Below, piece after piece: positions 24,299 to 55,574 of a DNA stretch of 64,000 nucleotides. This stretch comes from Nitrospira sp. MA-1. GTDB lineage: Bacteria > Nitrospirota > Nitrospiria > Nitrospirales > UBA8639. The DNA lies in assembly GCA_032139905.1 (NCBI GenBank), contig JAQJDB010000004.1, forward strand, positions 248,001-312,000. Direction: 5' to 3'. The translations under genes and the position numbers were made by a program. Every line of letters begins with the position of its first letter. Within the stretch, counting starts at the first letter, position 1. Under the pieces are notes generated by a model. The model saw nothing but the letters and a program-made list of their open reading frames with translations. It was not told the DNA's origin and ran no database searches.

Positions 24299-24553
24299 AT
24301 GGAAGCTGTCATTGGTGGTGTGGTGGTCGGAGCTGTCGTTGCAGTGGCGGTCCCCTCAATTGCATCTGGAATAGGTTCGGTGCTGCGCCCCCTCGCTAAA
24401 GGAATGATTAAAGGAGGCCTTGTGGCCTACGCCGCTGTTTCAGAAATGGTTTCTGAAACCGGGGAACAATTCAATGACATGATTGCTGAGGCAAAATCGG
24501 AAATCGGGAACAACGATAAAAAAATGACCAGGACTAAATCCCAGCGTGCTTGA
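24299..24553 (+). CDS. Orphan DUF5132-type small membrane protein
   Basis: An 84-residue protein starting at the ATG at 24299 behind a strong AGAGGAGG site. It has an N-terminal membrane helix rich in G/V/A (residues 3-22), a P-S-I-A-S-G-I break, an R-P-L-A-K-G segment, and a C-terminal amphipathic helix with G-E-Q-F-N-D-M-I-A-E-A-K-S-E and a basic tail. It is nearly the same protein as that at 43405-43644 and related to those at 39575 and 39299, which surround a P-type ATPase. Here it stands alone, with no metal ATPase nearby. Confidence 0.8.
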   Translation: MEAVIGGVVVGAVVAVAVPSIASGIGSVLRPLAKGMIKGGLVAYAAVSEMVSETGEQFNDMIAEAKSEIGNNDKKMTRTKSQRA

Positions 24554-38025: not shown

Positions 38026-38066
38026 AAAGAGCCCCATGCCTTTGGCATGGGGCTCTGGGTTTTTGG
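38026..38066. terminator. Strong bidirectional rho-independent terminator
   Basis: A perfect 13-base-pair stem, agagccccatgcc (38028-38040) with ggcatggggctct (38044-38056) and a 3-base loop, is followed by a T-run at 38060-38064 and preceded by an A-run at 38022-38027. It can end the urea/fluoride transcript from the left and the small-gene transcript from the right. Confidence 0.85.
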
Positions 38067-38092: not shown

Positions 38093-38173
38093 CTAAACCG
38101 CTAAGGCACCTAAGACCGTAAAAGCCGCCAGCACTCCCAGGAATGACGCGAGAATTTCAGACAGAAAGGACAT
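38093..38173 (-). CDS. 26-residue hydrophobic small protein
   Basis: A tiny gene with an exceptionally strong ribosome site: AAAGGAGGTGATG, an almost complete complement of the 16S rRNA tail, ends just before the ATG at 38173. The product, M-S-F-L-S-E-I-L followed by A-S-F-L-G-V-L-A-A-F-T-V-L-G-A-L-A-V, is a single short membrane helix. It ends 27 bases before the bidirectional terminator. It may be a subunit or regulator of a membrane protein; I do not recognise it. Confidence 0.6.
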   Translation of the reverse strand: MSFLSEILASFLGVLAAFTVLGALAV

Positions 38174-38248: not shown

Positions 38249-38374
38249 TTAGATGGAAAAGAAGTATTTGGAAAGAAGCAAAACCGGCGCTCCCGGCAAT
38301 CCTGGAATGATAAACAGGACCGCACCCACGACCAACGAAAGCCAACCCATAAAATTATAAAATGTCTTTTTCAC
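38249..38374 (-). CDS. 41-residue PGPGW-like membrane protein
   Basis: A GTG start preceded by AAGGAGGAG at a spacing of about five bases. The product starts (M)K-K-T-F-Y-N-F-M-G-W and continues L-S-L-V-V-G-A-V-L-F-I-I-P-G-L-P-G-A-P, resembling the short PGPGW-type transmembrane proteins, which have a P-G-x-P-G break between two helices. The C-terminus is shorter than in that family. It lies 75 bases upstream of the 26-residue gene on the same strand, and both precede the terminator, so they probably share a transcript. Confidence 0.6.
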   Translation of the reverse strand: MKKTFYNFMGWLSLVVGAVLFIIPGLPGAPVLLLSKYFFSI

Positions 38375-38824: not shown

Positions 38825-39160
38825 TTATAGGTCCTTTTTTGTGAGCTTGCCTTCCCTGAACTGGATGGTCTTCTCAATAGCCTCGGTGAACGATTCCCCA
38901 TAGGCGAATATTCGGTAACCGAGATAGCCGGCAATCATAGCTCCTGCTATCTCTCCGACCCCAAAGGTCATTGCCGCAGCCAGTCCCACCCCTCCGGTTA
39001 AGGTCCCACCGACATTGGGATGTTCGTGAAATATTTCCCAAATCCCACCTGTGAGCGAGGTAATGGCTCCCTCGAGGCCTCCTAGTGCCTCCTTGCCACT
39101 TCCGGCGATTGCGTCACTCAATGATTCAGTCTCTGTTCTGCTAGTTGCCCTTTTTGGCAT
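38825..39160 (-). CDS. Small glycine-rich membrane protein at end of ATPase cluster
   Basis: A 111-residue protein with an N-terminal polar segment and a central G/A-rich region (residues 45-85) that can form two membrane helices with G-x-x-x-G patterns. The C-terminus is amphipathic and basic, ending K-L-T-K-K-D-L. An AAAGGAAA site lies before the ATG. It is the last gene of the seven-gene cluster at 38.8-43.6 kb. It is not clearly DUF5132 but follows the same plan of membrane segment plus charged tail. Confidence 0.6.
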   Translation of the reverse strand: MPKRATSRTETESLSDAIAGSGKEALGGLEGAITSLTGGIWEIFHEHPNVGGTLTGGVGLAAAMTFGVGEIAGAMIAGYLGYRIFAYGESFTEAIEKTIQFREGKLTKKDL

Positions 39161-39298
39161 ATCAATTTCCTTTTAGATAAAAAAATTTCACCCTCAATTC
39201 ACCAAGGAATTCTAACGGAACCATGGCAGGTTGTAAAATCATGTGAAGAATTCCAGGCCGAGAAATCTGGGACATCGACCTATAGGGATGCCATAAAA

Positions 39299-39514
39299 TT
39301 ATGATGACGATGAATGTGTCAATTCCGCCTGAACCTCACTGACTAGGTCGGAATAGGTGGCTTCCACAATCAACCCTCCCATGACGATTCCTTTTATGAC
39401 AGGGCGAACGCTTTGCTGAAGACCAGAAATGATATAGGGAGAAAAATACCCCACCGCAGCCGTAGCCGCGAATCCGATTGCACCCCAAACCAAACCTGCA
39501 ACACCTGTCTCCAT
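39299..39514 (-). CDS. DUF5132-like small membrane protein
   Basis: A 71-residue protein with a membrane helix (residues 5-25), the break P-Y-I-I-S-G-L, the R-P-V-I-K-G segment, and an amphipathic end with D-L-V-S-E-V-Q-A-E-L. It shares the DUF5132 plan with the proteins at 39575, 43405 and 24299, but ends in H-S-S-S-S instead of a lysine-rich tail. A GAGGAGGG site precedes the ATG. Confidence 0.7.
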   Translation of the reverse strand: METGVAGLVWGAIGFAATAAVGYFSPYIISGLQQSVRPVIKGIVMGGLIVEATYSDLVSEVQAELTHSSSS

Positions 39515-39574
39515 TGAACCCTCCTCGTTTTTGAATTTTTTTTGGTGTCCTTTATTATTCCAGCTTGGAACACG

Positions 39575-39814
39575 CTACCCTTTGCCTTTTGTTTTCTTTT
39601 CCTGATTGACTTCAGATTTGGCCTCAGCGACCAGATCTTGAAATTGTTCCCCTGACTCAGAAACATATTCTGATGCCGCTGAATAGGCTGCAATTCCCCC
39701 TTTCATGGCTTCCTTGGCCATGGACCGCACCCCCGAAGTAACTGTCGAAATAAGTGATGGGGCTGCTACCGCTGCAATCGCACCAACGACTATACCACCA
39801 ATGATTGGTAACAT
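39575..39814 (-). CDS. DUF5132-type small membrane protein
   Basis: A 79-residue protein with an N-terminal G/V/A membrane helix, P-S-L-I-S-T, R-S-M-A-K-E-A-M-K-G-G-I-A-A-Y and the conserved end G-E-Q-F-Q-D-L-V-A-E-A-K-S-E with a lysine-rich tail. It lies directly after the P-type ATPase gene and before another DUF5132-like gene. Small proteins with this plan (membrane helix plus acidic/Ala-rich amphipathic helix) may scaffold metal-pumping ATPases; see the cluster finding. Confidence 0.8.
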   Translation of the reverse strand: MLPIIGGIVVGAIAAVAAPSLISTVTSGVRSMAKEAMKGGIAAYSAASEYVSESGEQFQDLVAEAKSEVNQEKKTKGKG

Positions 39815-39918
39815 GAATTCTTACTCCCTTCTTGAATAAATTTGCGTTGTATCCTGAAGGCTGAACCCGGCCAAGCTGACAAAAACCGGGTACATTCCTC
39901 AGGTCTGAATCCCTTGCC

Positions 39919-42522
39919 TTACGCGGAAAGCTCTATGAGTTCTTTCTCGGAAACCTGCTGACGTTCTTCTGCTGTCTCATTTTCCCAACTATCGCTTTTT
40001 ATAACCTGTGATTCCAGAACCCGTATGGTCCGTGGCGGTTCGGCAGGCTTCCCCATAATGGGTCGAAGGCCATTCAAGGTGGCAATGATGGCTGAACCAT
40101 TACTGAGTAGCGTGGCACCGATGGGTCCGAGAATTCCAATACAGGCCAATCCCAGCGCAAAGGTATTCGGGATAGAAATTATTTTCCAGTTCTGATGGAT
40201 CAAGCTGATGGCTTCGCGGCTAATATCAATGGCTGCGGGAATTTTCCACAGGCCTCCATGTAACAAGGTCACATGGGCCGTATCCTGAGCCACCTGGGTT
40301 CCCCCCTCCACGGCAATTCCGACATCGGCAAAGGCAAGGGCCGGTGAGTCGTTAATTCCATCTCCTACGACTGCCACCTTGTATCCCTGTCGCTGAAGGT
40401 CCTTCACCACATCCGCTTTATGGCCGGGGAAGACTTCGGCAATATAGCGGTCAATCCCTAAATCCAGGGCCACCCGTTTCGCGACTTTTTCATGGTCCCC
40501 TGTGAGCATGACGATTTCTTTAATTCCGCGTTCCTTGAGAGCGTGAATCACGTCAGCCGCCTCCGGCCTGATAGGGTCGGTGTAGGACAACAAGCCTGCG
40601 AGTTTCCCGTCCACGGCTACACAGAGGGGAGAAACGGCACGGTCTTCTAATTCGCTGATTTGCTTTTTGATTTTTTTCGAAAGAGAGATGCGTTGTCCGG
40701 TCATATACCGGTGATTCCCAACCAGCACGATTCGACCGTCCACTATTGATTCAACACCCAGCCCCAGGGTGTAGTCGGAGGTGGTTCGCTCCGAGATGAT
40801 CAGCCCACGTTCCTGCGCTGCCCGGACAATCGCTTGGGCCACAGGATGTGTCAGTCGATTCTCCGCAGCCGCTGCCAGGCTCAGGACTTCATCTGCTGAG
40901 AATGAGCCAAGTGGGCAAATGTCCACCACGTCGGGGTGTCCCATGGTTAGGGTGCCCGTTTTATCAAAGACCACGGCATCCACCTCAGCCAGATTTTCCA
41001 TATGGCGCCCGCCTTTAATCAAAATGCCATGGCGGATCGCCTTGGTCATGGAACACAGGACTGTCGTGGGAGCCGCGATTCTGATTCCCGTTCCATAGTC
41101 CACAATCAACACCGCGGCTGCGCCGGGAATACCGCCGCCAATCACGGCGCCGACCGCGCCGAGGCCAAAACTATAGGGGACCAGGTCATTGGCCCATTTC
41201 ACGGCGTAGTTTTGAATTTTGGTCTCTCTGGCGGGAGCGCCCTCCACCAACCGCACAATTCGAGCGGCCTCTGTTTCATCGCCGATTTGCTCAGCCTGAA
41301 TGTACAGTTCCCCTTCACGGAGGACTGTAGCGGCATAGACCGGATCGCCGGTATTTTTTTCGACCGGCATGGATTCGCCGGTTAAGGTCGCCTGATCCAC
41401 CAGGGCTTTACCCGATTGGACAGTCCCGTCTATGGAAATCCGTTCCCCGGGAAAGACCACCACGGTTTCTCCGCGTTGAATCTCGCTGACAGGAATCTGA
41501 ATTGTTTGACCGTCCCGAATGACCCAAGCCCGGGTCTTCTGGTAGGCCAGAACTTCTTCGATCGCCTTTTTGGACTGTAACACCGTCAGGTCACGAATAT
41601 AGTCCGCCACATTGATTAAAAAGACCATACCGGTCGCCATGGGAAAGGCGCCTTGTATCGACATCAGAGCGGTCGCAGAGGCATCGAGAACATCCACATT
41701 GAGTTTCCCCTCAACCGCGACGGAATGGTAGGCCCGTTTGAGCATCGGCAGTGCGGCAGCCAGGAGGAAGGCGGGAACAGCGATAGCAGCTAGGGGTTCA
41801 ACGAACAGAGCGATGGCAATTCCGGTGCTTGAATACCACAGTTCCGGGCCAGATTCCTCATCGACGGCATTCTCTTCCTGTTCTTGCATGACCTGTTTGG
41901 GCTGGTAAGCCTCAATCTCTTCATGCCGAAAGCCCCGGAGAAAGTGACATAACTTTTCTCCATTCCACGTGATCGAGTCAAAGGTCACCGTGACGCTCGA
42001 GCAGCTGGAGTTAACACTGACTTCCTGAATGCCTTCCTGGTCCTGTAAAAAGATAGGGAGGGCATCGGCAAGCTGGGCACGAATCTGCAAGGCAGGGACA
42101 CGAAGACGCACTCGCTCTGGAAGTGAGTGGACGACCTCAATGGAGGCCAGGATGTTGGGCATTGTGGCAGGTAATGTCACAGGTTTTCTGTTGGAAGCTG
42201 GCTCCACGCCATTCCCGTTCCTCTCGTCATGCTCTGCTTCCCCTAATGCTGTGTTGAAATTGTCGATGCAAATATCCTTGGGTGAAACTCCAAGGGTTTT
42301 CGCGATCATGCGAAAGAACTTCGGATTGGTAGCCTGACATTGGTCATAGTGAAGAATGAGGTGCCCTGTCGCTGGATTTTTCGAAACTTCATCCACCCCG
42401 TCCAGTCTGGACAGTTTGAGATCGATCCCCTCTCCGGAGTCAATGTGTTGTTCAAATCCCGACAATTTTAATCGAAGACGGCCGGGGAGAGCATGGACGA
42501 TGGAAGCCGAGGGGGTGCTCAT
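39919..42522 (-). CDS. P-type ATPase with N-terminal HMA2-like domains, no CPC motif
   Basis: An 867-residue P1B-like ATPase. Two N-terminal HMA-like segments begin V-H-A-L-P-G-R-L-R-L (residues 9-18) and V-H-S-L-P-E-R-V-R-L (131-140); neither has CxxC. The actuator motif is T-G-E-S (381-384) and the phosphorylated aspartate is D520 in D-K-T-G-T-L-T; the later T-G-D-H and G-D-G-I-N-D-S-P motifs are present, so it should be an active pump. In the metal-path helix, where P1B pumps normally have C-P-C or S-P-C, this protein has V-D-Y-G-T-G-I-R-I-A-A-P (475-485), so its ion cannot be read from known motifs. Mycobacterial CtpC also has a non-CxxC N-terminus of this style. It sits amid small DUF5132 and HMA2 genes. 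Confidence 0.88.
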   Translation of the reverse strand: MSTPSASIVHALPGRLRLKLSGFEQHIDSGEGIDLKLSRLDGVDEVSKNPATGHLILHYDQCQATNPKFFRMIAKTLGVSPKDICIDNFNTALGEAEHDERNGNGVEPASNRKPVTLPATMPNILASIEVVHSLPERVRLRVPALQIRAQLADALPIFLQDQEGIQEVSVNSSCSSVTVTFDSITWNGEKLCHFLRGFRHEEIEAYQPKQVMQEQEENAVDEESGPELWYSSTGIAIALFVEPLAAIAVPAFLLAAALPMLKRAYHSVAVEGKLNVDVLDASATALMSIQGAFPMATGMVFLINVADYIRDLTVLQSKKAIEEVLAYQKTRAWVIRDGQTIQIPVSEIQRGETVVVFPGERISIDGTVQSGKALVDQATLTGESMPVEKNTGDPVYAATVLREGELYIQAEQIGDETEAARIVRLVEGAPARETKIQNYAVKWANDLVPYSFGLGAVGAVIGGGIPGAAAVLIVDYGTGIRIAAPTTVLCSMTKAIRHGILIKGGRHMENLAEVDAVVFDKTGTLTMGHPDVVDICPLGSFSADEVLSLAAAAENRLTHPVAQAIVRAAQERGLIISERTTSDYTLGLGVESIVDGRIVLVGNHRYMTGQRISLSKKIKKQISELEDRAVSPLCVAVDGKLAGLLSYTDPIRPEAADVIHALKERGIKEIVMLTGDHEKVAKRVALDLGIDRYIAEVFPGHKADVVKDLQRQGYKVAVVGDGINDSPALAFADVGIAVEGGTQVAQDTAHVTLLHGGLWKIPAAIDISREAISLIHQNWKIISIPNTFALGLACIGILGPIGATLLSNGSAIIATLNGLRPIMGKPAEPPRTIRVLESQVIKSDSWENETAEERQQVSEKELIELSA

Positions 42523-42674
42523 TATGATAAATCCTTTGCAGAAGAGATGAGAAATAAAAGGGAAACCAATTGAAATCCGGACGCAATTTTTCAGTCGCTT
42601 TTCATCTCGTGGGATGAATCAACCGGGTTGGTATACCCACTATTGTTAGATCTAGGATTTGCCTCGTGTTTTCT

Positions 42675-43040
42675 TTAAAGGCTTCTTTGGTAAAGCCTTT
42701 TTGGATGCTTTTGCCTTGTCTGTTCGCGCTGTTTTTGAGGATGTCGTGTGCTTTTCTGAGCGGGAACTTTTCCTGACGGTGTTTTTACATTGGAGAGAGG
42801 TAAGCCTAAGAAGGACGCAACAGAAGAATGGAGGCCTAGGACTTCTACAATATTTTGGCCGTATTCAATGAGGAGGCTGCTTGTTTGGGTATTCGCCGCC
42901 ACATGTTTCATTCCCGACATTTCAAGAAGGTCGCGTTGAATTTCAGCAGCATTCGCAATGTTGTTTTTCAGCCGGTGAAGCTTAAGACGCACCCGACCGG
43001 GCAGGGCATGAACAATCTGAGCATCACTCTCCTGATTCAT
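42675..43040 (-). CDS. HMA2-domain small protein
   Basis: A 121-residue protein. Residues 1-80 form a single HMA2-type domain starting I-V-H-A-L-P-G-R-V-R-L-K-L, the same opening as in the adjacent ATPase. The C-terminal 40 residues are basic. In the neighbouring frame the DNA encodes a more regular Lys/Ser/Thr/Ala tail, 'K-A-K-A-S-K-K-A-L-P-K-K-P-L-K-K', stopping at 42652. A one-base change near the A-run at about 42785 may therefore have altered the tail. Without CxxC the domain may act in protein contact rather than metal binding. It lies between DUF5132-like and ATPase genes. Confidence 0.75.
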   Translation of the reverse strand: MNQESDAQIVHALPGRVRLKLHRLKNNIANAAEIQRDLLEMSGMKHVAANTQTSSLLIEYGQNIVEVLGLHSSVASFLGLPLSNVKTPSGKVPAQKSTRHPQKQREQTRQKHPKRLYQRSL

Positions 43041-43082
43041 CTCTTTTCATCCTTGGCCTTTTGTCCCTTTTGTCGGTTGGCA

Positions 43083-43385
43083 TCAGCTTTTCCCCGGGCC
43101 ATACTTCGCTTTCCCGGTTTTACTTCCCCTGGCTTTTTTATTCGTTCCTCCCTGGGTACTGTCAGGGGAGGGTGTTTTGAGAGTTTCCGAGCGTGCCTCT
43201 TCCAAAAGTTCATTGAATTGTTTCGTCACCATTGAAGTCTTCTCGGAGACTGTGTCGAAAGCCACAAGGCCGGCTTTGACAAGCTCTTTGACTAATGGGC
43301 GAAATGCACCGGAAATTCCGGTGGAACCGTCCTCGGATTGCGGGTTGTCCGTTGAGGCAGAATCTTCTTTATCTGGCTGAGACAT
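43083..43385 (-). CDS. DUF5132-like protein without N-terminal membrane helix
   Basis: A 100-residue protein with a polar, acidic first 25 residues, then the family core F-R-P-L-V-K-E-L-V-K-A-G-L-V-A-F and Q-F-N-E-L-L-E-E-A-R-S-E, and a long lysine/glycine-rich tail. It matches the DUF5132 pattern from the R-P-L-x-K segment on but lacks the usual membrane helix, so it may be a soluble partner of the membrane forms. It lies 20 bases downstream of the DUF5132 gene at 43405. Confidence 0.65.
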   Translation of the reverse strand: MSQPDKEDSASTDNPQSEDGSTGISGAFRPLVKELVKAGLVAFDTVSEKTSMVTKQFNELLEEARSETLKTPSPDSTQGGTNKKARGSKTGKAKYGPGKS

Positions 43386-43404
43386 GGTCTAACCTATTTC
43401 TGCT

Positions 43405-43644
43405 TCATTTTGAGGATTTGGCTTTTGCTGGTTTAGCAATTTCTGCTTTTGCTTCAGCGACAATGTCATTGAATTGTTCCCCGGTCTCAGCAACCATTTC
43501 CGAAACGGCGGCATAGGCCACAATGCCTCCCTTTAAAACTTCCTTAATTAAAGGACGAAATACTCCACCGAAACCGGACAGAAGGGACGGGGCTGCTACT
43601 CCTACCACTGCTCCAACAACCGCACCGCCAATTACAGCTTCCAT
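43405..43644 (-). CDS. DUF5132-type small membrane protein, first gene of ATPase cluster
   Basis: A 79-residue protein with a G/V/A membrane helix (residues 3-22), R-P-L-I-K-E-V-L-K-G-G-I-V-A-Y-A-A-V-S-E-M and the conserved end G-E-Q-F-N-D-I-V-A-E-A-K-A-E, followed by a lysine/alanine tail. It is very like the orphan at 24299-24553. A GAAGGAGGG site precedes the ATG. It is the first gene of the cluster that runs to 38825. Confidence 0.8.
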   Translation of the reverse strand: MEAVIGGAVVGAVVGVAAPSLLSGFGGVFRPLIKEVLKGGIVAYAAVSEMVAETGEQFNDIVAEAKAEIAKPAKAKSSK

Positions 43645-43833: not shown

Positions 43834-44556
43834 CTACTCCAAAACAATGGTATGTCGATTTCCGTCGCGAACCCAGTAGGTCTCTCCAGGCCAGATATAC
43901 TCCATGCCCTGGGGCCCATGAATTTGGATGCCCGTGAGAACTGCATAGTCATTCTGCACGGGATCAACGGTTAATTGGATCATTCTTTCAAGTTCCTCAA
44001 GAATGACAGCATACGCGGTTTTCGTCAGACTCAGGAGGTCCGGAATGTCACCGTAGGTGAGTTTGCGAAAGAGATGTTGCTTCAGCAGGCTTTGTTCGAT
44101 GTCATCAAGATCGATTCCCAAAGAGACGCACCGATTGGCCAGTTCAGCTTGGAATCCGTGCAATGCCCCGCAGGCATGGGACGGTTGCAAACGCCCGGGA
44201 CGATCATGGCGACCAATTTCGCCTTGTGTATCCACGCCGATGTGCGGCAGGGCAAAATACACATAGCGTTCACGCCCATCTTCATTCGGCGCATGGTGTT
44301 GCGCGGCTAAAAATCCGGTCTTTCCCAGAAAGAGCATGCCGCCCAGACTGGAAAAAATAAAGGCTTCTCCCCAGGTTTTTTTCACGTCCTCGACGAAGGG
44401 CAATGTCAGTTCATCCCGGCACAGGCTGACGAAGGCAATGGTATTTTCAGCCCGGAAGCCTTCAGCCTGCAAGAGATCATAAGAGCGTTTGACAAAATCC
44501 TCTTGGGGTATCGCCTTCGGAAAGTGTGTGGAGAGGACTGTGTTAAAGCTTGCCAT
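43834..44556 (-). CDS. LCIB/C-type (theta) carbonic anhydrase
   Basis: A 240-residue protein with the layout of the limiting-CO2-inducible B/C family, first known from Chlamydomonas and classed as theta carbonic anhydrase. Zinc-site candidates are C46 with R47-D48-E49 (C-R-D-E), H87/H88 (A-Q-H-H-A-P) and C129 (H-A-C-G-A). The family phrases G-G-M-L-F-L-G-K-T-G-F, F-A-L-P-H-I-G-V and D-D-I-E-Q-S-L-L are present. It probably interconverts CO2 and bicarbonate in the cytoplasm. It lies 12 bases downstream of a Ca2+/H+ exchanger-type gene on the same strand. No export signal is seen. Confidence 0.85.
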   Translation of the reverse strand: MASFNTVLSTHFPKAIPQEDFVKRSYDLLQAEGFRAENTIAFVSLCRDELTLPFVEDVKKTWGEAFIFSSLGGMLFLGKTGFLAAQHHAPNEDGRERYVYFALPHIGVDTQGEIGRHDRPGRLQPSHACGALHGFQAELANRCVSLGIDLDDIEQSLLKQHLFRKLTYGDIPDLLSLTKTAYAVILEELERMIQLTVDPVQNDYAVLTGIQIHGPQGMEYIWPGETYWVRDGNRHTIVLE

Positions 44557-44568
44557 GGATTTGCCTGG

Positions 44569-45636
44569 CTACATCGGGAGAAAGAAAAATCCAATGCCCA
44601 AAATTACATAGACTCCCAATAACATCACGCCTTCCATCCAGTGGGATTCTCCATCTTTGGTGAGGTTCCCGTTGACGAGAATCGCGATGACAATGGCCGC
44701 AATTTCAAATGGCACGAAAAGCAAATCCAAGGGTTTGGGGCCGAGAAGGTAACTGACGAATACCAGCATCGGCGCCACAAACATCACCACCTGAATACTC
44801 GCCCCGACGGCAATGCCCATGACCAGATCCATTTGATTATTCCTGGCGAACCGCACCGAGTTCATCAGCTCTGCCGCATTCCCGAATACGGCCAGAAAAA
44901 TCACACCGGCAAAGATGGGAGTGAGGCCGATGCCTGCGGCGGCGGGTTCAATCGCTCCGGTTAATATTTCGCTCATGAAGGCAATGCCCACTGTCACGGC
45001 GGCCAACATTCCAATGGCTTTGTTTTTACTCCATACCTCTTCTTTTTCTTCCTCTTTTTGTGGTGCGCTCCCTTCGATCGGTTCTTCGGCTTCCGTGCGA
45101 AATAAATGCTGATGAGTTTTCAGGGTAAACACCAGGCTGAGGAGATAGGCGATGAAGAGCACAACGGCGATTTCGGTACTGAGTTCTGTTTCCTGTTTGG
45201 AAGTGAAATGAAACAGAGCAGGGACAATGAGTCCGACACCTGCGAGGGTTAAGAGTCCCGAACTCATCCCGGCCGCCGTCGCATTGAATTTTTGTTGTTT
45301 ATGGCGAAGACCGCCGAGGAGTATCGCAAGCCCCATGCCGAGCAACAGGTTTCCCAAAATGGATCCCGTGATTGAGGCTTTGACCACATCGTACAGCCCC
45401 GCTTTCAAGGCAAAGATCGAAATAATCAATTCCGGGGCATTTCCCATTGTGGCGGCCAGTAATCCTCCCAGGGTGGCCCCGATGTAGACCGACAGGTTTT
45501 CCGTCGAGCGCCCCATCAACCCGGCTAAGGGCACAATGGCGAGGCCCGAGACGATGAAGACAAGAATGGGGTTGGCTTCATACCAGTCCAGTCCTATTGC
45601 AATGGGGATGAAGACCAGGAGTAAATTAAGTCCCAT
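44569..45636 (-). CDS. CAX-type calcium/proton exchanger
   Basis: A 355-residue membrane protein with the two inverted alpha-repeats of the CaCA superfamily: G-N-A-P-E-L-I-I-S...G-S-I-L-G-N in the first half and G-N-A-A-E-L-M-N-S in the second. An acidic Glu/Lys-rich cytoplasmic loop (around residues 190-205) separates the halves. Such proteins extrude Ca2+ against H+. It lies directly upstream of the carbonic anhydrase gene, suggesting a linked role in pH, calcium or inorganic carbon balance. Confidence 0.88.
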   Translation of the reverse strand: MGLNLLLVFIPIAIGLDWYEANPILVFIVSGLAIVPLAGLMGRSTENLSVYIGATLGGLLAATMGNAPELIISIFALKAGLYDVVKASITGSILGNLLLGMGLAILLGGLRHKQQKFNATAAGMSSGLLTLAGVGLIVPALFHFTSKQETELSTEIAVVLFIAYLLSLVFTLKTHQHLFRTEAEEPIEGSAPQKEEEKEEVWSKNKAIGMLAAVTVGIAFMSEILTGAIEPAAAGIGLTPIFAGVIFLAVFGNAAELMNSVRFARNNQMDLVMGIAVGASIQVVMFVAPMLVFVSYLLGPKPLDLLFVPFEIAAIVIAILVNGNLTKDGESHWMEGVMLLGVYVILGIGFFFLPM

Positions 45637-45787: not shown

Positions 45788-46777
45788 TCACAAAGAGAAA
45801 AGAAATCCGAAATAGAGTATGGCGCTTCCGCTCAACAGCCATGGCCGCCAATGTCCAAGCCATTTCAAATGGACATAACATACGCCCATAGCCAAGAGCG
45901 CCAGGATCATTGGCGTCAGAGCTTGAGAGTCCAGGTTCCAGTCGGTCCCCACCAGTCCTATGGCCACAGGAATGGTCCCCTGAAACACCATGGCCCCGGT
46001 GATAATACTAATCGCGAGGGTATCTTTTCGGTGTTGGAGCCAGAGCACACTATTGGCTAATTCCGGCAACTCCGTGGCCAGTGGGGCAATTAATAAGGTG
46101 AGAAGAAGTGGTGAGACCGCTAAGGTCGATGCGAGATTCTCCGCCACGTACACGAAGATTTGAGAGCCTAAAATCAAGGTTGTGACGCCAACCACTCCTT
46201 GCAAAAGAATGATCGCGTAGGAAGGGAGTGTGGTCTTTCGTGCAAAAATCAGGGGAACGGGATTGAAATCTCCACCGGACTGACCGGAAAGCTTTTTTAC
46301 GACATAGAAAACATACAGACCAATTAAAAATACTGCGCCAACCAGGTGCAGCCAGCGATAAGTGAGAAAGGCGCAACCAATTCCCAAACTAAATGCCAGG
46401 AGGAAACAACGCAAATCGGTTCGTACCGCTAGGACATTCAGCTTAAAGGTTGGTGGACGTCTGCCGTATCGAGAGAACACCAAAAGCAGGATCGCCAGGA
46501 TTGGCAAAATCAGCGTACTCTGGGTGAAGGGAGCACCAAGAATCGCGCCCATTCCCACATCTGTTTTGGGAGCACCCGCAGTTAAAAAGAATGCACTAAC
46601 AGGAATGGCCGTTTCCGGTAGAGTCGTACCCAACGCCGCATAAATGCTACCCACGGCACCTTCTGAAGTGCTGGTCCGTTTCCCCAGCCACTCAACAGCG
46701 TTGGTAAATACGGAACAGCCCCAAAGGATGATCAATACCGCGCATAGGAAACCACCCACATAAAAAATAATGTTCAT
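45788..46777 (-). CDS. CaCA-superfamily cation antiporter
   Basis: A 329-residue membrane protein with about ten helices and CaCA alpha-repeats: A-L-G-T-T-L-P-E-T-A-I-P in the first half and A-P-L-A-T-E-L-P-E-L-A-N-S in the second. It belongs to the Na+/Ca2+ exchanger-like branch rather than CAX. It is upstream of the CAX gene on the same strand with a spacer of 151 bases, so co-regulation with the carbonic anhydrase is possible. Ion specificity cannot be told. Confidence 0.82.
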   Translation of the reverse strand: MNIIFYVGGFLCAVLIILWGCSVFTNAVEWLGKRTSTSEGAVGSIYAALGTTLPETAIPVSAFFLTAGAPKTDVGMGAILGAPFTQSTLILPILAILLLVFSRYGRRPPTFKLNVLAVRTDLRCFLLAFSLGIGCAFLTYRWLHLVGAVFLIGLYVFYVVKKLSGQSGGDFNPVPLIFARKTTLPSYAIILLQGVVGVTTLILGSQIFVYVAENLASTLAVSPLLLTLLIAPLATELPELANSVLWLQHRKDTLAISIITGAMVFQGTIPVAIGLVGTDWNLDSQALTPMILALLAMGVCYVHLKWLGHWRPWLLSGSAILYFGFLFSL

Positions 46778-48215: not shown

Positions 48216-49085
48216 TCACGGACGGGTTAAAGAAGACTGTGGATCGTGTTGCTCCCTAAAATTCTTCGGGGCCAGTCCCTGAGTAAAGGAGTGGCTCCGC
48301 TGATGATTGTAAAACCGCTCAATGTAGTCAAAAATATCGGCGCGGGCCTCTGCCCGGGTTTGGTACTGCCGCCGATGGACTCGCTCTCGTTTGAGGAGGC
48401 CAAAGAAACTCTCTGCCACGGCATTGTCATAACAACTTCCCACGCCACTCATACTGCTGACAATCCCATGAGCCTGGAGAAAGGCTTGAAACTCCTGTGA
48501 GGTATACTGGGTGCCTCGGTCGGAATGCAGGATGACAGGGGCCGCACTCGTCCGCTGCCACACGGCCATCAGCACGGCTTGGAGGACCAGGTCCCGTCCC
48601 AGTTGTGGCTGCATCGACCACCCAATCACTTGCCGAGAGAACAAATCGAGCACCACCGCCAAGTACAGCCAGCCTTCTTGCGTGGGAATATAGGTGATAT
48701 CCGTCACCCATTTGGCATTCGGACCTGGGGCTGAAAAATCCCGGGCCAACTGATTCGTGATTCCAGCCGGTCGGTCTCCAGATCTCCGCCGTTTCCAACG
48801 CGTGGGAGCAGGAATCCCTCGCAACCGCTCCCGTTGCATTAAACGGGCAACACGATGTTTCCCACAGCCCTCGCCTTGCCTGCGTAACACCTGCCAGATC
48901 TTCGGGCTCCCATAGACCCCATCACTGTCTGCATGGATGATGCGAATGGCGGCCGTCAGGCGCTGACAGTCTTGAGCCCAGGGACTCGGAGAGCGGCGCT
49001 GCCGGGCATAAAACCCACTCGGGGAGACGTGGAGGAGACGACACATCAGACGCAGAGGAAACATGGTGCGACAACGTTGAATCAT
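48216..49085 (-). CDS. IS3-family transposase orfB (DDE catalytic part)
   Basis: A 289-residue integrase-type catalytic protein. The DDE residues are in W-V-T-D-I-T-Y-I, L-H-S-D-R-G-T-Q-Y and N-A-V-A-E-S-F-F, with the usual D(35)E spacing. The N-terminal part carries the HTH_21-type region (Y-G-S-P-K-I-W). It is made mainly as an OrfAB fusion by -1 frameshifting from orfA; the visible ATG at 49085 lies after the orfA stop. It appears intact. Confidence 0.93.
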   Translation of the reverse strand: MIQRCRTMFPLRLMCRLLHVSPSGFYARQRRSPSPWAQDCQRLTAAIRIIHADSDGVYGSPKIWQVLRRQGEGCGKHRVARLMQRERLRGIPAPTRWKRRRSGDRPAGITNQLARDFSAPGPNAKWVTDITYIPTQEGWLYLAVVLDLFSRQVIGWSMQPQLGRDLVLQAVLMAVWQRTSAAPVILHSDRGTQYTSQEFQAFLQAHGIVSSMSGVGSCYDNAVAESFFGLLKRERVHRRQYQTRAEARADIFDYIERFYNHQRSHSFTQGLAPKNFREQHDPQSSLTRP

Positions 49086-49443: not shown

Positions 49444-49853
49444 CTACCTTAGCAATTTCAGGGAAACATCCCAAATAAGTACATTCAGAGAACGTATGGT
49501 TCATGTCGTTCAATGTACGTCGCTACCAAGCCTCTGAATGGCCAACGTGTTAATCCGGGAGTCTCTGTCAATAATTACAGCGGACGCAAAAGAAATGTTG
49601 GCAGTAAAGAAAGTCCTCTTGGGTCTATGGCATGTGGCAACGGACCGAATATTTGAGCTATGCTGGCGCCATGTATTTCGCCATGTAGCTATGGGGATAT
49701 TGGGTTGGACCAGAACGACAGCCCGGGTTAGCCTGCCCGTGAAATCTGCCCTCGCATGTATGTCCTGTCGCGCGTCGACGCGCAGGGGGGAAGCGTGGTG
49801 CAGGCACGAGAAGGGATCTTTTGCTTGGTGAGTTGTCAGGAGGGAGGAAACGC
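49444..49853. other. No gene seen between the IS and the CzcC-like genes
   Basis: About 410 bases. A 97-codon frame (49538-49831) has no ribosome site and is cysteine/arginine-rich without recognisable fold. The promoter for the CzcC-like pair should lie here. Confidence 0.4.
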
Positions 49854-51206
49854 ATGACCAGAGGTTGGGCTACACCCTATCCCTATCCGGTGAGAGATAC
49901 TCGGGGATGGACATGGTGCGGGGAGACATGGTTTCTCACGATGGTGATGATCATCGCGGGGGTCTTGAGTCTGAATCCAGCGGTGGCTGCAACAGGGGAG
50001 GAGAGCTTGAAGAAGCAGAATTCCACGGTGCTGCGTCTGAGTTTGGATGATGCGATTGCCTTGTTTCTCCGTCAAAATCTGGATCTTCTTCAAACCAAAT
50101 ATGGCATTGATACCGCCAAGGCCAAACGAATTACCGCCGGCCTCTTCCCGAATCCCGAACTCTCCATCAATACCCTCAGCGCGTACACCCAGGATTGTAA
50201 CCTGAGTAAATGCGGAGGAATTATGCCCGTGATCAGTCAACTGTTTCTGGTGGCGGGTAAACGCGGATTCCGTGTTGAAAGTGCGGAGTTCGGGACGCAA
50301 TCAGCCGAAGCCGGATTCGAAGATACGCTTCGACAACTCAGTTTTGCCGTGAAGGATGCCTATTATCGGGTTCAAGTGGGGCATCGCCTTCTGGAGGATG
50401 ATGAACAGAGGTCCAGCCGGATCAATGGTGCTATCGAGAAACTAGGTGGTACATTGGCAAAGACACAAAATCCGGAGGATTTAATCCGCCTTCAAATTCG
50501 AGCGGTTAAAACACATGCTAATATTATCCGGGATATTCAACAGATTGATTCGGACCGATCCGATCTCCTCCTGCTCTTGGCCCTCTCACCGGAAACGGAA
50601 TTAGAACTGACGACGGATCTGACGTTCGAGCCGATCGCCCCCGATATTGTGGCTCTGAAGAAGCGCGTCGAGGATGCCAGACCGGATCTTCGCGCCAAGC
50701 GTCTGCTCTTGGCCAAGCGCCGTTCAGAATCGAAGCTGGCGATAGCCAACCAGTACCCGGATGTAACGGTGGACCTCGGGTACAATGTCCAGGGACCTCA
50801 AGGACCTGACAACCAGCAACAATGGACCATCAATTTGGGCATGCCTATTCCCGTGTTCGACAGAAATCAGGGAGGCATCAAGGAAGCAGCCGCCACAGTG
50901 CATATTGCAGAAGCCGACCTGCGCAAGACCGTGAATGAAGTTCATCACCAAATAAACACGGTCTATCGGCATTTAGGGCAAAGCCGTCTGCTGGTCGAGA
51001 CCTACCGCGCGGGTGCCTTCGAGGCCAGCGAAGCCTTGTTCAATAGGGTGGAGCAGGACTTCCATTCGGGAAAGACGACGATTCTGCATTTGCTCGATGC
51101 CTTTCAGGCAAAAATTGATATTGATAAGGCATACATCAACGCACTCTATGAATATCAACGCGATATTCTGCTTCTCGAGAGTGCGGCTGCTCAGCCAGTC
51201 AGCTAA
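49854..51206 (+). CDS. CzcC/TolC-like outer-membrane channel protein, copy 1
   Basis: A 450-residue outer-membrane efflux protein of the CzcC branch of the TolC family. It has a signal peptide (cleavage near residue 46), long helices with two TolC-type repeats, and strand segments P-E-L-S-I-N-T-L and V-T-V-D-L-G-Y. In RND or other tripartite pumps such trimers form the exit duct for metals or drugs. No CzcA or CzcB gene is next to it. The ATG at 49854 follows AGGAGGGAGG; an earlier start is not needed. A paralogue follows directly and shares patches of identical DNA with it. Confidence 0.85.
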   Translation: MTRGWATPYPYPVRDTRGWTWCGETWFLTMVMIIAGVLSLNPAVAATGEESLKKQNSTVLRLSLDDAIALFLRQNLDLLQTKYGIDTAKAKRITAGLFPNPELSINTLSAYTQDCNLSKCGGIMPVISQLFLVAGKRGFRVESAEFGTQSAEAGFEDTLRQLSFAVKDAYYRVQVGHRLLEDDEQRSSRINGAIEKLGGTLAKTQNPEDLIRLQIRAVKTHANIIRDIQQIDSDRSDLLLLLALSPETELELTTDLTFEPIAPDIVALKKRVEDARPDLRAKRLLLAKRRSESKLAIANQYPDVTVDLGYNVQGPQGPDNQQQWTINLGMPIPVFDRNQGGIKEAAATVHIAEADLRKTVNEVHHQINTVYRHLGQSRLLVETYRAGAFEASEALFNRVEQDFHSGKTTILHLLDAFQAKIDIDKAYINALYEYQRDILLLESAAAQPVS

Positions 51207-51218
51207 AGATCCCGGCCT

Positions 51219-52586
51219 ATGATGTGTTCCCAATCTTCCTTTTGTCCTTTTTCACGCGTTCGCGACCCCGCAAAACCAGTGCCGGTGATTCGGTTCTTCC
51301 TGAAGGCATGCATCATCATGGGCTTTCTTGGCTGGCTGGGGTTGGGAAGCGTTGGCAGCGTCATGGCGGGAAAACAGGAAGACAGGCCTGCAGAACAGAA
51401 GCCCGCAGTCCAGCGTCTGAGTCTGGATGATGCGATTGTCTTGTTTCTCCGTCAAAATCTGGATCTTCTTCAAACCAAATATGGCATTGATACCGCCAAG
51501 GCCAAACGAATTACCGCCGGCCTCTTTCCGAACCCGGAATTTTCTATCAATACCCTGAGTTCCTACACCCAAAATTGCGAACTCTCTGATTGTGGAGCGA
51601 TTAGCTCCGTCCTGAGCCAACAGTTTGTCGTGGCGGGCAAACGCGGTTTCCGTATTGAAAGTGCGGAGTTCGGCATGCAATCAGCCGAAGCCGGATTTGA
51701 GGACTCGCTTCGACAGCTCAGTTTCGCCCTGAAGGATGCGTATTACCGTGTTCAGGTCGCACGTCGTCATTTGGCTTTCGATCAAGAGACTCGTGATCTC
51801 CTCTCTCGTGTGGTGGAAAAAATGACGGATGAGTTACAAGGGATGGGCAACTACAAAGACCTTACCCGGCTCAAACTTCAAATGGTGGATGCACAATATG
51901 AGTTAATCCGTGATGTTCAGCGAATTGATTCCGACACCGCCGACCTCCTCTTGCTCTTATCCCTCTCCCCCGAAACTAAATTGGACCTCACAACGGACCT
52001 CACGTTCCAGTCGATCGCCCCTGATATGAATGCATTGAAAACACGGGTTGAAGAGACACGACCGGACGTTCGGGCCAAGCGTCTTTTGTACGCGAAGCGT
52101 CGCGCCGAATTGAAGCTTGCTTTCGCCATTCAATACCCGGATGTGACGGTGGACCTCGGGTTCATGGTCCAGGGATCCAGGGGACCTGACAACCAACAGC
52201 AATGGACCTTCAACGTGGGTATGCCCCTTCCCGTGTTCGACCGGAATCAGGGCGGCATACAGGAAGCTGCCACCGTCGTTCAAATCGCCGAGGCCGATTT
52301 GCAGCAGACGCTCAATGAGGCGCATGCTCAAGTTGACTTGGCACATCGTCATCTGGTCCAAAGTCGTCGGTTAGTGGAAGCCTACCGGGCCAGGGCGTTG
52401 AATGCCGCTCAGTCCCTGTTCGATACCGTGAAGAAATCTTACGAAGCCGGGAATAGCGAAATTCTGTCCTTTCTTGATGCCCATCAGATGAGAAACGATA
52501 TTCAAGAGGCATACCTTGATGCTCTCTACCAGTATCAACGTGATATCCTTCTCCTCGAAAGTGCGGCCGGACAAACCATTAGCTGA
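51219..52586 (+). CDS. CzcC/TolC-like outer-membrane channel protein, copy 2
   Basis: A 455-residue paralogue of the preceding protein, 12 bases after it. It has a signal peptide from about residue 28 (cleavage near S-V-M-A) and the same CzcC/TolC layout. The N-terminal half is highly similar to copy 1, with an 87-base stretch of identical DNA, whereas the middle (about residues 190-240) is clearly different. This suggests different partner pumps or substrates, or gene conversion. The two may form a mixed channel (inference). Confidence 0.83.
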   Translation: MMCSQSSFCPFSRVRDPAKPVPVIRFFLKACIIMGFLGWLGLGSVGSVMAGKQEDRPAEQKPAVQRLSLDDAIVLFLRQNLDLLQTKYGIDTAKAKRITAGLFPNPEFSINTLSSYTQNCELSDCGAISSVLSQQFVVAGKRGFRIESAEFGMQSAEAGFEDSLRQLSFALKDAYYRVQVARRHLAFDQETRDLLSRVVEKMTDELQGMGNYKDLTRLKLQMVDAQYELIRDVQRIDSDTADLLLLLSLSPETKLDLTTDLTFQSIAPDMNALKTRVEETRPDVRAKRLLYAKRRAELKLAFAIQYPDVTVDLGFMVQGSRGPDNQQQWTFNVGMPLPVFDRNQGGIQEAATVVQIAEADLQQTLNEAHAQVDLAHRHLVQSRRLVEAYRARALNAAQSLFDTVKKSYEAGNSEILSFLDAHQMRNDIQEAYLDALYQYQRDILLLESAAGQTIS

Positions 52587-52716: not shown

Positions 52717-53478
52717 ATGGGTCGCGTCATTGCCATCACCAACCAAAAGGGCGGGAGCGGGAAGACGACAACCGCCGTGAATCTTGCCGCGACGCTTGGC
52801 GAACTCAAGCGTCGAGTTCTGCTGGTGGACCTCGATCCCCAGGCCTCAGCCTCCAACTGGTATGGGATTGCCGAAGAGGGAAAGGGGCTCTATGAGGCCT
52901 TTACGGAATCCAAAAATCTCAAGGATCTCATTCAATCGACCTGTGTGCCTCGGGTTGACATGATCCCTTCTTCATCCTGGCTGGTGGGGGTCGATAAGGC
53001 GTTGGCCGGGGAAGTCGGAGCAGAGATGATTCTCAATCGTCATCTCGCTGACCTGTCTGATCACTGGGATTATATTCTTCTTGATTGTTCTCCCACGCTT
53101 GGCATTGTGACCATCAATGCGTTGGTAGCCGCCAAAGAAATTCTCATTCCCGTAGAGACACATGTGATGGCCTTGCGTGGATTGGCTCATCTGCTTCAAA
53201 CGGTGGAGACGATTCGTGTCAGGTTAAACTCGGCTTTAGCAATTTCCGGGATTCTAGCCTGTCGGGTCGATGCTCGCACGCGGCATGCATTAGAAGTGGT
53301 GGCCCAACTCCGTGAGCGTTTTAAAAAGCAAGTGTTTAAAGTGGTCGTCAGAGAAAGTATTCGGTTGGCGGAATGTCCATCATTCGGGAAACCCGTGACA
53401 TTGTATGATCCACAGGGGAATGGCGCAAAAGACTATCGGGCTTTGGCAAAAGAGGTAATCAGGCAGGAACGGGTGTGA
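52717..53478 (+). CDS. ParA/Soj-type ATPase
   Basis: A 253-residue ParA-family ATPase with the deviant Walker A K-G-G-S-G-K-T-T (residues 10-17), the Walker A' D-L-D-P-Q-A-S and the L-D-C-S-P-T-L motif. ParA proteins form ATP-dependent gradients on the nucleoid that position chromosomes, plasmids or protein cargo. No parB or parS-like repeats are nearby. The next gene, a small membrane-anchored protein with a basic N-terminus, is a plausible partner. This suggests a cargo-positioning ParA rather than a chromosome-segregating one. Confidence 0.9.
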   Translation: MGRVIAITNQKGGSGKTTTAVNLAATLGELKRRVLLVDLDPQASASNWYGIAEEGKGLYEAFTESKNLKDLIQSTCVPRVDMIPSSSWLVGVDKALAGEVGAEMILNRHLADLSDHWDYILLDCSPTLGIVTINALVAAKEILIPVETHVMALRGLAHLLQTVETIRVRLNSALAISGILACRVDARTRHALEVVAQLRERFKKQVFKVVVRESIRLAECPSFGKPVTLYDPQGNGAKDYRALAKEVIRQERV

Positions 53479-53528: not shown

Positions 53529-53942
53529 ATGACGAAACGACGTACAATTGGAACAAATCCACTGGATGAGATCATTCCGAATCCATTGGGAGCTGCGATA
53601 CCTGGTCAACAGGAAGGTCCGGACCAATTCGCGCTTCAGGAATCGCGAAAACAAGGAATTGCAGGCAAAACCGCCGGTCAGCATTCTGTGCCCGATCGCG
53701 TGCAACATGACAAAAAAGAGGTGAGATTCCTTCATCTGGTTTCAAAGGATGAGGGTCTAAAAGGGAATTTCAAGAGCTCCCAAGCGGTTCCTGCAGCAGC
53801 ACCTCAAGTAAGAATTGAGATGCATCCGGCGACCGGTCATTTATCTGAACGCCTTGTTGAACTCGAAGAGGAAAACCTTTGTCTGAAGTGGGCATTGGGA
53901 TTGATTCTCGCGCCCTTTGTCCTTTTAGCCTTTTTGGGCTAG
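53529..53942 (+). CDS. Small tail-anchored protein, candidate ParA partner
   Basis: A 137-residue protein. It opens with a basic stretch M-T-K-R-R-T-I-G-T-N-P-L-D, then has a long polar, low-complexity region (residues 25-100), a short coiled-coil-like E-R-L-V-E-L-E-E-E-N and a C-terminal membrane helix L-I-L-A-P-F-V-L-L-A-F-L-G. ParA partners often have a lysine/arginine-rich N-terminus that stimulates ATP hydrolysis, which fits here. An AGGAGAGG site precedes the ATG. It lies 50 bases after parA and is probably co-transcribed with it. The family is not known to me. Confidence 0.7.
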   Translation: MTKRRTIGTNPLDEIIPNPLGAAIPGQQEGPDQFALQESRKQGIAGKTAGQHSVPDRVQHDKKEVRFLHLVSKDEGLKGNFKSSQAVPAAAPQVRIEMHPATGHLSERLVELEEENLCLKWALGLILAPFVLLAFLG

Positions 53943-54191
53943 ATCCGATTCAGTCAGATGACACCTCTATGCCGGGTAAAAGGGGCGGGTGCCTTTTCTG
54001 GTTTTCCTCAAGAAGAATCTTGCCGGACCTTTTTGAAATTCCCCTGAGAAACCTGCTTAAGGTCATGGGCAGTTTAGTCACACACACATCCCCCATTTTT
54101 ATGCGTTCTGCTTTAAACAGGATCAACTTCACCGTGATCTTGGACTTCCAAGGTCTTTGATAAGATTCATCAGCATCGGAAGGTGCTCCTC
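53943..54191. other. Short spacer
   Basis: Spacer before the CorA-type gene. No supported gene; a 93-codon frame through it lacks a ribosome site. Confidence 0.35.
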
Positions 54192-55154
54192 ATGAAAATC
54201 CATTGCTTCCGACTCCAAGAAAAGGGTTTGCTTCAACTCACCGAGGAAAGACCTACGGCATCATGGCTTGAGGATGGAATCGTCCGTTTATTGGATGTGG
54301 ATTACCCAGATGTTACCAAAGATCTGCGTGAACTCCTTTCCCCCCTGAATCTGGAAGGCGCTCTGCTGGACAAGATCGAATCCCAAGCCGACGGTGTCTG
54401 TGTTGAAACATTCTTGAACGCCTTGTTTCTTCGATACCCACGCCCGGCCATTCATGACTTTAAGGATCTCTATATTTCGATGATCTGTGTGCGAGAAACC
54501 CTCATTATTCTCCACAATGGAATGCCCTTGTCCCTGGAACAAATTTTCGCGAGGATCGACCGGTTCGGAGGGATCGGAACCACTGCCATCACGGACCTTC
54601 TTCTCCATATCCTGTTATTGGTCATTAATCGTGATATCGAATTGTATCAGCAAACTCGACAATTGATCGGGGAATTGTCAAATAACTTTGATCAGTGTCT
54701 TAACACCGAAGTACTCAATGATATTCAGAATCTGACCAATCAGGTTAGCCGTCTCCAATCAACGACTGAAGATCGTCTCATTTTCTTGGGAGGCTTACTC
54801 ACGTTGAAATCCCCTCTATTGGAATTGCATGACGTGCGATTGTATTTTAAAGAGGCCATGAACGAATTAATGCAAATGCAGCGTTGGTTGGAACGTCTGG
54901 AGGGAAGGCTACAGGGTTTATCTCAATACTACAATTTGTCGCTGCAGAATAGCACCAACAATCGTCTTCAAGTCCTGACAGTCATTTCGGCCATTTTTAT
55001 GCCACTCACCCTTATTGCCGGTATTTACGGCATGAACTTCACAAATATGCCCGAACTTCAGATGCACTACGGCTACTTTATCATTCTCGGTTTCATGGTT
55101 TTGCTGGGTGGGGGATTGGGAATATTTTTTTATGTACGGGGCTGGTTTCATTAA
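54192..55154 (+). CDS. CorA-type divalent cation transporter
   Basis: A 320-residue protein with a large N-terminal cytoplasmic alpha/beta-helical domain and two C-terminal membrane helices. The signature Y-G-M-N-F follows the first helix, as in CorA magnesium channels; the next loop reads T-N-M-P-E-L. The family moves Mg2+ or, in the ZntB branch, exports Zn2+. The missing M-P-E-L within the classic order G-M-N and the context of metal-related genes leave Mg2+ against Zn2+ open. The ATG at 54192 is preferred to a GTG at 54183. Confidence 0.85.
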   Translation: MKIHCFRLQEKGLLQLTEERPTASWLEDGIVRLLDVDYPDVTKDLRELLSPLNLEGALLDKIESQADGVCVETFLNALFLRYPRPAIHDFKDLYISMICVRETLIILHNGMPLSLEQIFARIDRFGGIGTTAITDLLLHILLLVINRDIELYQQTRQLIGELSNNFDQCLNTEVLNDIQNLTNQVSRLQSTTEDRLIFLGGLLTLKSPLLELHDVRLYFKEAMNELMQMQRWLERLEGRLQGLSQYYNLSLQNSTNNRLQVLTVISAIFMPLTLIAGIYGMNFTNMPELQMHYGYFIILGFMVLLGGGLGIFFYVRGWFH

Positions 55155-55225: not shown

Positions 55226-55561
55226 CTATTTGTCAGGGGATCGCTCATCTCCCGGTTCCGTGGCCTCACTGGCCTTGGTTTGCGGGCTGTCATCAAGAAT
55301 CGATTCAAACTCATCCCAGGAAATGGCACCGTCCTTGTCCTTGTCGAGTACCTTCAGGACGCCTTCCATCCATAGTTTTCGGGTCAGGAAGTTTCCGACC
55401 TTGGCATCGGCTAAGAGTTGCTCCAAGGCGGATGAGCCGATCTTGAAATCCTCTCCATCGATTTCATCGTAGTGGTCGAAGCCTTTACGAAAGTCACCGT
55501 CAAACCGTTCATTGACCAGTTGACGAATTTTGATTTTCAACTCTTCCTCTTCGGCTCCCAC
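55226..55561 (-). CDS. EF-hand calcium-binding protein
   Basis: A 111-residue acidic protein with one canonical EF-hand loop D-K-D-K-D-G-A-I-S-W-D-E near residues 80-91 and a weaker first hand around F-D-H-Y-D-E-I-D-G-E-D-F. There is no signal peptide. The GTG start at 55561 follows AAGGAGATACCA; the preceding gene ends immediately upstream (55575), so the two are translationally close. A longer frame to 55645 lies inside the upstream gene. Calcium sensing or buffering is inferred from the loop. Confidence 0.75.
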   Translation of the reverse strand: MGAEEEELKIKIRQLVNERFDGDFRKGFDHYDEIDGEDFKIGSSALEQLLADAKVGNFLTRKLWMEGVLKVLDKDKDGAISWDEFESILDDSPQTKASEATEPGDERSPDK

Positions 55562-55574
55562 TGGTATCTCCTTT

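Follow-up and report, generated by a model that had tools for sequence, protein, structure and literature searches.

We analysed a stretch of 64,000 nucleotides from Nitrospira sp. MA-1 (contig JAQJDB010000004.1, positions 248,001 to 312,000; the window, below, is this whole stretch), and within it an island built around a P-type ATPase and small DUF5132 proteins, which may encode a clustered cation-handling body positioned by a ParA-type ATPase. An earlier note, made from the sequence alone, had described seven minus-strand genes at this place as resembling a PacL-type metal-efflux platform. The open reading frame (ORF) check of the window confirmed all seven at 38825-43644 on the minus strand, in the order described, and they are conserved as a unit. 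That list had missed an eighth gene, a further DUF5132 gene (D3), and conserved flanks extending to about 54 kb. The core features are as follows.

43405..43644, minus strand: D1, DUF5132 protein of 79 amino acids (Pfam DUF5132 E 3e-11, 43408-43644)
43083..43385, minus strand: S1, DUF5132 paralogue of 100 amino acids without a membrane helix (phmmer E 4e-11 to D1; hydropathy 0.93)
42675..43040, minus strand: HMA_2 protein of 121 amino acids (Pfam HMA_2 E 1.7e-14, 42678-43040)
39919..42522, minus strand: P-type ATPase of 867 amino acids with two N-terminal HMA_2 domains (TIGR01525, 513.7 bits)
41062..41103, minus strand: ion-pathway motif VDYGTGIRIAAPTT in transmembrane helix 4 (TM4) of the ATPase, at the CPC position (motif analysis)
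39575..39814, minus strand: D2, DUF5132 protein, membrane form, 79 amino acids (Pfam DUF5132 E 4e-6, 39578-39814)
39299..39514, minus strand: S2, DUF5132 paralogue of 71 amino acids with a borderline membrane helix (phmmer E 8e-7 to D1; hydropathy 1.63)
38825..39160, minus strand: G protein, a glycine-rich membrane protein of 111 amino acids (alignment; genome distribution)
38249..38374, minus strand: eighth gene, DUF454-like hairpin (PGLPGAPVLLLSKYF), 41 amino acids from GTG (Pfam DUF454 E 1e-5, below cut-off)
38028..38056, minus strand: strong, bidirectional terminator-like hairpin with a 13-bp stem (sequence)
24299..24553, plus strand: D3, free-standing third DUF5132 gene, 84 amino acids (Pfam DUF5132 E 3e-9)

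D1 consists of an N-terminal glycine-rich membrane helix followed by an RPL.K segment and a D(I/V)VAEAKAE amphipathic helix, and its AlphaFold2 (AF2) model shows two helices, 2-24 and 30-70, at low confidence. The Pfam cut-off (PF17195) was passed by D1, D2 and D3; S1 and S2, assigned only via their similarity to D1, are true paralogues rather than the DUF5132-like genes of the earlier list, and all four small proteins of the cluster are thus DUF5132 proteins. Neither these two nor the G protein gave a confident Pfam match. That the small proteins come with or without a membrane helix was supported by hydropathy for D1 (2.13) and D2, which have one, and for S1, which has none, S2 being borderline. 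No relative of DUF5132 was found among solved structures, and our full-text literature search found no mention of the family.

We then asked how DUF5132 relates to PacL (DUF1490). Rhodococcus and Pseudonocardia plasmids encode relatives of the window pump beside DUF1490 proteins. For this, a hidden Markov model (HMM) of DUF1490 was built from 10 PacL-type proteins of these plasmids and searched against 5386 ORFs from all loci. DUF5132 proteins ranked at the top, with a median of 5.5 bits where reversed sequences gave -0.45 and composition-preserving shuffled ones 0.0, and the signal persisted in 16 sequences below 50% identity (p 4e-4 and 4e-6 versus the reversed and shuffled controls). Mere Ala/Glu composition as the source of the similarity was ruled out by these controls. 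A protein of 94 amino acids encoded beside a CPC-type pump (locus L056) bridges the two families, matching Pfam DUF1490 at E 5e-4 and DUF5132 at E 0.03 and scoring 20 and 50 bits under the local HMMs of both. The families align in a single register comprising the glycine-rich helix, (L/F)RP, G(L/I) and D-(I/V)-V-A-E-A-(K/R), and the small DUF5132 proteins are, as PacL, encoded beside a P1B ATPase. On this evidence, DUF5132 and PacL are probably remote homologues; the parallel with PacL, which the earlier note had staked on such a similarity, gains a sequence basis above composition controls. A connection of DUF1490 with DUF6110 proteins that are encoded next to P1B-6 pumps had already been drawn in the PacL paper (PMC9374683). 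No protein of the window matched Pfam DUF1490, and none passed its cut-off in the whole genome. The Asp/His-rich metal-binding motif of the PacL C-terminus is absent from the tails of the window DUF5132 proteins, which hold no histidine in D1, S1, D2 and D3 and one in S2.

The ATPase scores as a heavy-metal P1B pump by TIGR01525. Its TM4 reads VDYGTGIRIAAPT, D-Y-G-T-G-I-R standing in for CPC, its transmembrane helix 6 (TM6) reads SNGSA, and no CxxC occurs anywhere in its sequence; it is unlike the CPC-type pumps found beside DUF1490. In a tree of 39 rows, which held no verified FezB sequence, it fell into a clade of 26 rows (support 100/99) together with pumps of Cyanobacteria, Acidobacteria and further Nitrospirota. 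This clade is sister to Azospirillum and Vibrio pumps bearing DYSCALKL(A/S)TP and HN, and the window pump was not nested with the Priestia/Fusobacterium pumps. Judged from the tree and its motifs, it is a separate P1B offshoot allied to the P1B-6 (FezB-like) pumps. The HN motif of TM6, a mark of P1B-6 (PMC9374683), is SN in the window pump and NN or HN in its cyanobacterial relatives.

The HMA_2 protein has likewise no CxxC and carries a basic motif, H-x-x-x-GR-x-R, in which Arg16 and Arg18 are invariant and His11 near-invariant in the alignment, at the place where classical HMA domains are expected to have metal-binding cysteines. Its AF2 model has an HMA-like fold (core pLDDT, the predicted local distance difference test score, about 90 for residues 11-60), with weak Foldseek matches that include MerP, ATP7B and CopZ domains. 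It likely serves in membrane or protein docking rather than in soft-metal binding. The domain resembles the CoBaHMA domains reported from calcyanin and from certain P1B ATPases.

The seven genes form only part of the true unit, which also takes in the DUF454-like hairpin gene, a CAX exchanger, a carbonic anhydrase of LCIB type, proteins resembling TolC, and ParA with a membrane-anchored partner. Those beyond the hairpin gene are listed here together with a second exchanger.

43834..44556, minus strand: LCIB-type carbonic anhydrase (Pfam LCIB_C_CA E 1e-55; conserved neighbour)
44569..45636, minus strand: CAX calcium/proton exchanger (TIGR00378, above cut-off; conserved neighbour)
45788..46777, minus strand: YrbG-like calcium/sodium exchanger family protein (TIGR00367 E 1.6e-19, below cut-off)
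49821..51206, plus strand: TolC/IhpA-like outer membrane efflux protein (Pfam OEP E 7e-36)
51219..52586, plus strand: second outer membrane efflux protein (Pfam OEP E 1e-34)
52717..53478, plus strand: ParA-type ATPase, Walker motif KGGSGKT (Pfam AAA_31 E 1.6e-53)
53529..53942, plus strand: ParA partner with a C-terminal membrane helix (alignment; genome distribution)

Every gene of the block is kept in Nitrospirales NPIRA06, where the block is divided between two contigs, in NPIRA03 and in a third congener. Among 197 genomes of the class, the P-type ATPase was found in 12 (E below 1e-100, window genome included), some of which belong to a second family (other genera, 55-66% identity), and was not found in the congeners G417, G454 and G495. 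The unit is therefore patchy, as would be expected from transfer or repeated loss. DUF5132 copies are present at the locus in 10 of the 11 other genomes with the ATPase, the contig of the eleventh ending there, and most of these loci also carry the G protein, HMA2, CAX and LCIB. The G protein family occurs in 12 of the 197 genomes, 11 of them with the ATPase (Fisher 4e-16). In second-family relatives (L196, L197, L200, L201, L203), a TMEM175-like potassium channel gene lies inside the island (Pfam-checked in L201 only); none was seen in the window.

The CAX protein reaches 357 bits with the equivalog TIGR00378, whose cut-off is 211. In 8 contiguous genomes, 1.2-3.2 kb separate CAX from the ATPase, and CAX also adjoins the distant pumps of L054 and L055 (E about 1e-97). 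LCIB is present in 9 of the 12 pump genomes, and one locus (L199) has a Pro_CA carbonic anhydrase in its place. The ParA-type protein, which has a deviant Walker A motif (KGGxxK[ST]), is 60-62% identical to the copies beside the DUF5132 cluster in relatives, and in five of these the corresponding gene stands next to the first DUF5132 gene in divergent orientation. Its partner has a basic N-terminus (KRRTIxxNPLD), a predicted coiled-coil stretch and a C-terminal membrane helix in the alignment; it was found in nine of the class genomes, all of which have the P-type ATPase (Fisher 2e-13). Proteins that partner ParA ATPases typically work through an N-terminus with positive charge, as in the McdAB positioning of carboxysomes (PMC12204374); unlike that of McdAB, the window partner ends in a membrane helix, and its cargo would presumably be the pump cluster.

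To see how far these associations reach, the DUF5132 profile alone was scanned against bacterial and archaeal species genomes, and 79 loci were obtained from Nitrospirota, Cyanobacteria, Beta- and other Proteobacteria, and Acidobacteria. The earlier idea of a separate version in this phylum was thus too narrow, while the co-occurrence with P-type ATPases on which it depended is widespread: within 6 kb of DUF5132, HMA_2 was found at 73 of the 79 loci and a P-type ATPase at 55 (38 and 31 of the 41 loci with full flanks). All 16 DUF5132 genomes of the phylum sample also have HMA_2 (Fisher 2e-17). The phylum of the Acidobacteria locus is a rare host, since only 2 of its 199 genomes have DUF5132. 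Wherever the companion pump could be typed, it was either P2-type with PEGLP (31 loci) or of the P1B offshoot (20 loci), and none has CPC. PEGLP, N..E and N..[ST]D, calcium-pump residues equivalent to the SERCA calcium sites, are kept in all 30 of the full-length P2 pumps from the other DUF5132 clusters, for which the best NCBIfam model is a PMR1-type calcium pump, below its cut-off. As in the window, DUF5132 precedes HMA_2 proteins and a P-type ATPase that carries an N-terminal HMA_2 in the P2-type clusters (Thermodesulfovibrionia, Betaproteobacteria); these clusters differ in their PMR1/SERCA-like calcium-type pump, a repeat-rich protein of 230 amino acids and MetK. At L095, L079, L052 and about 30 other loci the calcium-type P2 ATPase itself has the N-terminal HMA_2 domain, and at these P2-type loci the repeat-rich protein and, oddly, the MetK gene adjoin the pump.

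Altogether, we propose, at a probability of roughly 0.42, that the island encodes a clustered, possibly organelle-like body for cation handling, probably of calcium, that is positioned by ParA and has not been described in these bacteria. In such a membrane-clustered, possibly vesicle-like transport body, the membrane and soluble forms of DUF5132 would be small PacL/FezA-like scaffolds that gather the pump, making contact through the membrane helix and the conserved D-I-V-A-E-A-K helix. The HMA_2 domains may use their basic motif to anchor the pump and partner proteins to lipid or to one another, rather than to carry soft metals. Through its oxygen and amide ligands (D-Y-x-T ... S-N), the ATPase would transport a hard divalent cation, with Ca2+ the likeliest, acting together with the CAX exchanger and perhaps with bicarbonate from the carbonic anhydrase, while the ParA ATPase and its membrane-anchored partner would position or partition the body. 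The calcium residues of the P2 pumps, the presence of CAX and the loss of Cys/His ligands make calcium the most likely cargo, at a little short of even odds; iron, as in ferrosomes, or manganese may be carried instead. A calcium or calcium carbonate organelle of Nitrospirales, membrane-bound and ParA-positioned, with PacL-related scaffolds around an oxygen-ligand P1B pump and with DUF5132/HMA_2 as a general kit for calcium-type pumps in at least four phyla, would go much further, and we hold it unlikely in that full form.

The nearest known system is the PacL1-CtpC effluxosome of Mycobacterium tuberculosis (DUF1490 with a P1B ATPase; PMC9374683, PMC13043812), with which the window shares the glycine-rich membrane helix, the (L/F)RP segment, the D-(V/I)-V-A-E-A-(K/R) helix and the position beside a P1B ATPase. 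A plasma-membrane platform of this mycobacterial style, in which PacL-like scaffolds cluster an exporter that detoxifies heavy metals, would suit the PacL homology, the operon layout and the TolC/IhpA-like outer membrane proteins close by. This remains an improbable account, since the C-terminal metal-binding tail, CPC and CxxC are all missing, no metal-sensing regulator was seen in the cluster, and calcium-type exchangers are the neighbours. Unlike PacL1-CtpC, the window also has four DUF5132 copies per pump, one of them without a membrane helix, and its unit adds HMA_2, CAX, carbonic anhydrase and ParA. Of the earlier metal-efflux platform, the PacL-related small proteins beside a P1B ATPase are retained, whereas the conserved neighbours suggest that a hard cation, probably Ca2+, is handled and that ParA does the positioning, and do not suggest heavy-metal efflux.

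Iron storage in a ferrosome-type organelle, with a FezB-like P1B-6 pump and with HMA_2 and DUF5132 as Fez-type accessories, is also unlikely. Ferrosome fez clusters (Grant 2022, Pi 2023) reportedly encode the P1B-6 ATPase FezB together with FezA and FezC. With these clusters as reported, the window has in common a pump allied to P1B-6 that bears HMA_2 at its N-terminus, and, in the same cluster, both HMA_2 proteins and small membrane proteins. The sister Azospirillum/Vibrio pumps have DYSC..P and HN motifs, and the Azospirillum pump is clustered with HMA_2 and YtxH/DUF5132-like proteins beside an iron transporter of the ATP-binding cassette (ABC) type; this cluster (L158, Azospirillum brasilense plasmid p3), which resembles a fez cluster as reported, contains two HMA_2 proteins, a YtxH/DUF5132-like protein, the DYSC-type pump and iron ABC transporter genes. 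One of its HMA_2 proteins weakly matches DUF4405, the family to which FezC is related (PMC10979944). In the window pump, however, neither the Cys of the FezB-like motif in TM4 nor the TM6 His is retained. No Fur-box match was found within the window, and its conserved neighbours are calcium exchangers and a carbonic anhydrase. Set against the fez clusters as reported, the window shows no FezC-like cytochrome and no sign of iron regulation, and has a calcium exchanger and a ParA pair. Still more doubtful is a machinery for intracellular CaCO3 granules, in which pump, CAX and carbonic anhydrase would load a precipitating compartment as in the cyanobacterial calcyanin systems. It would account for the joining of carbonic anhydrase (of two unrelated families), CAX, HMA-like domains and a glycine-rich membrane protein in one unit; no calcyanin-like protein was identified, though. 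Intracellular carbonates are indeed formed by some members of the Nitrospirota, and the calcifying strains of this phylum are set apart along an axis linked to the copy number of YrbG (PMC12710302), but those reported are magnetotactic, deep-branching and not close kin of this organism.

Several observations weigh against the ParA-positioned cation body itself. In the profile comparison suggested in the earlier note, direct HHalign of DUF5132 against DUF1490 gave a register nearly identical to that of the HMM alignment and a probability of only 5-22%; this weak score is why the composition controls and the bridging sequence were used instead. The structure model of DUF5132 lacks the confidence that a fold search requires. 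In the window, about 10 kb separate ParA from the pump, and a transposase ORF lies in that interval. LCIB and CAX are not exclusive to pump genomes, occurring in 10 and 38 of the 185 other class genomes, respectively, and no CAX was found near the more distant pump of the class members G127 and G404 or at the cyanobacterial P1B-type clusters. As for the direction of transport, the outer membrane efflux genes would be as compatible with export as with storage.

These results tie DUF5132, an uncharacterised family, to PacL scaffolds by sequence. Since small proteins of this type are found with pumps of two unrelated classes across several phyla, scaffolding of P-type ATPases may be widespread. 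The island also offers a concrete gene set, positioning pair included, for an as yet unseen cation compartment in bacteria related to nitrifiers of environmental importance.

Finally, we note further features of the locus. Intergenic gaps are 19 and 42 bases at the cluster start and wider further on, promoter-like sites were not above chance frequency, and the hairpin at 38028..38056 is likely the end of the transcription unit. Just ahead of it, a candidate membrane micropeptide of 26 amino acids (MSFLSEILASFLGVLAAFTVLGALAV, 38093-38173, minus strand) has a strong ribosome-binding site and is partly conserved in the congener L195. The hairpin sequence of the eighth gene recurs as the C-terminus of HMA_2 proteins elsewhere (phmmer 1.6e-8 to the HMA2 of L153), and in L200 HMA_2 and DUF454 are fused in a single protein. 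D3 sits 14 kb from the cluster, and L195 also has a separate DUF5132 gene (L195:13517-13765). The transposase ORF, of IS3 type, spans 48216-49085 (minus strand), with the exchangers on one side and the outer membrane efflux genes on the other, and the matching gap in L195 holds no such ORF. Beyond the ParA pair lie a CorA-like transporter (54183-55154, plus strand) and a small EF-hand protein (55226-55645, minus strand).

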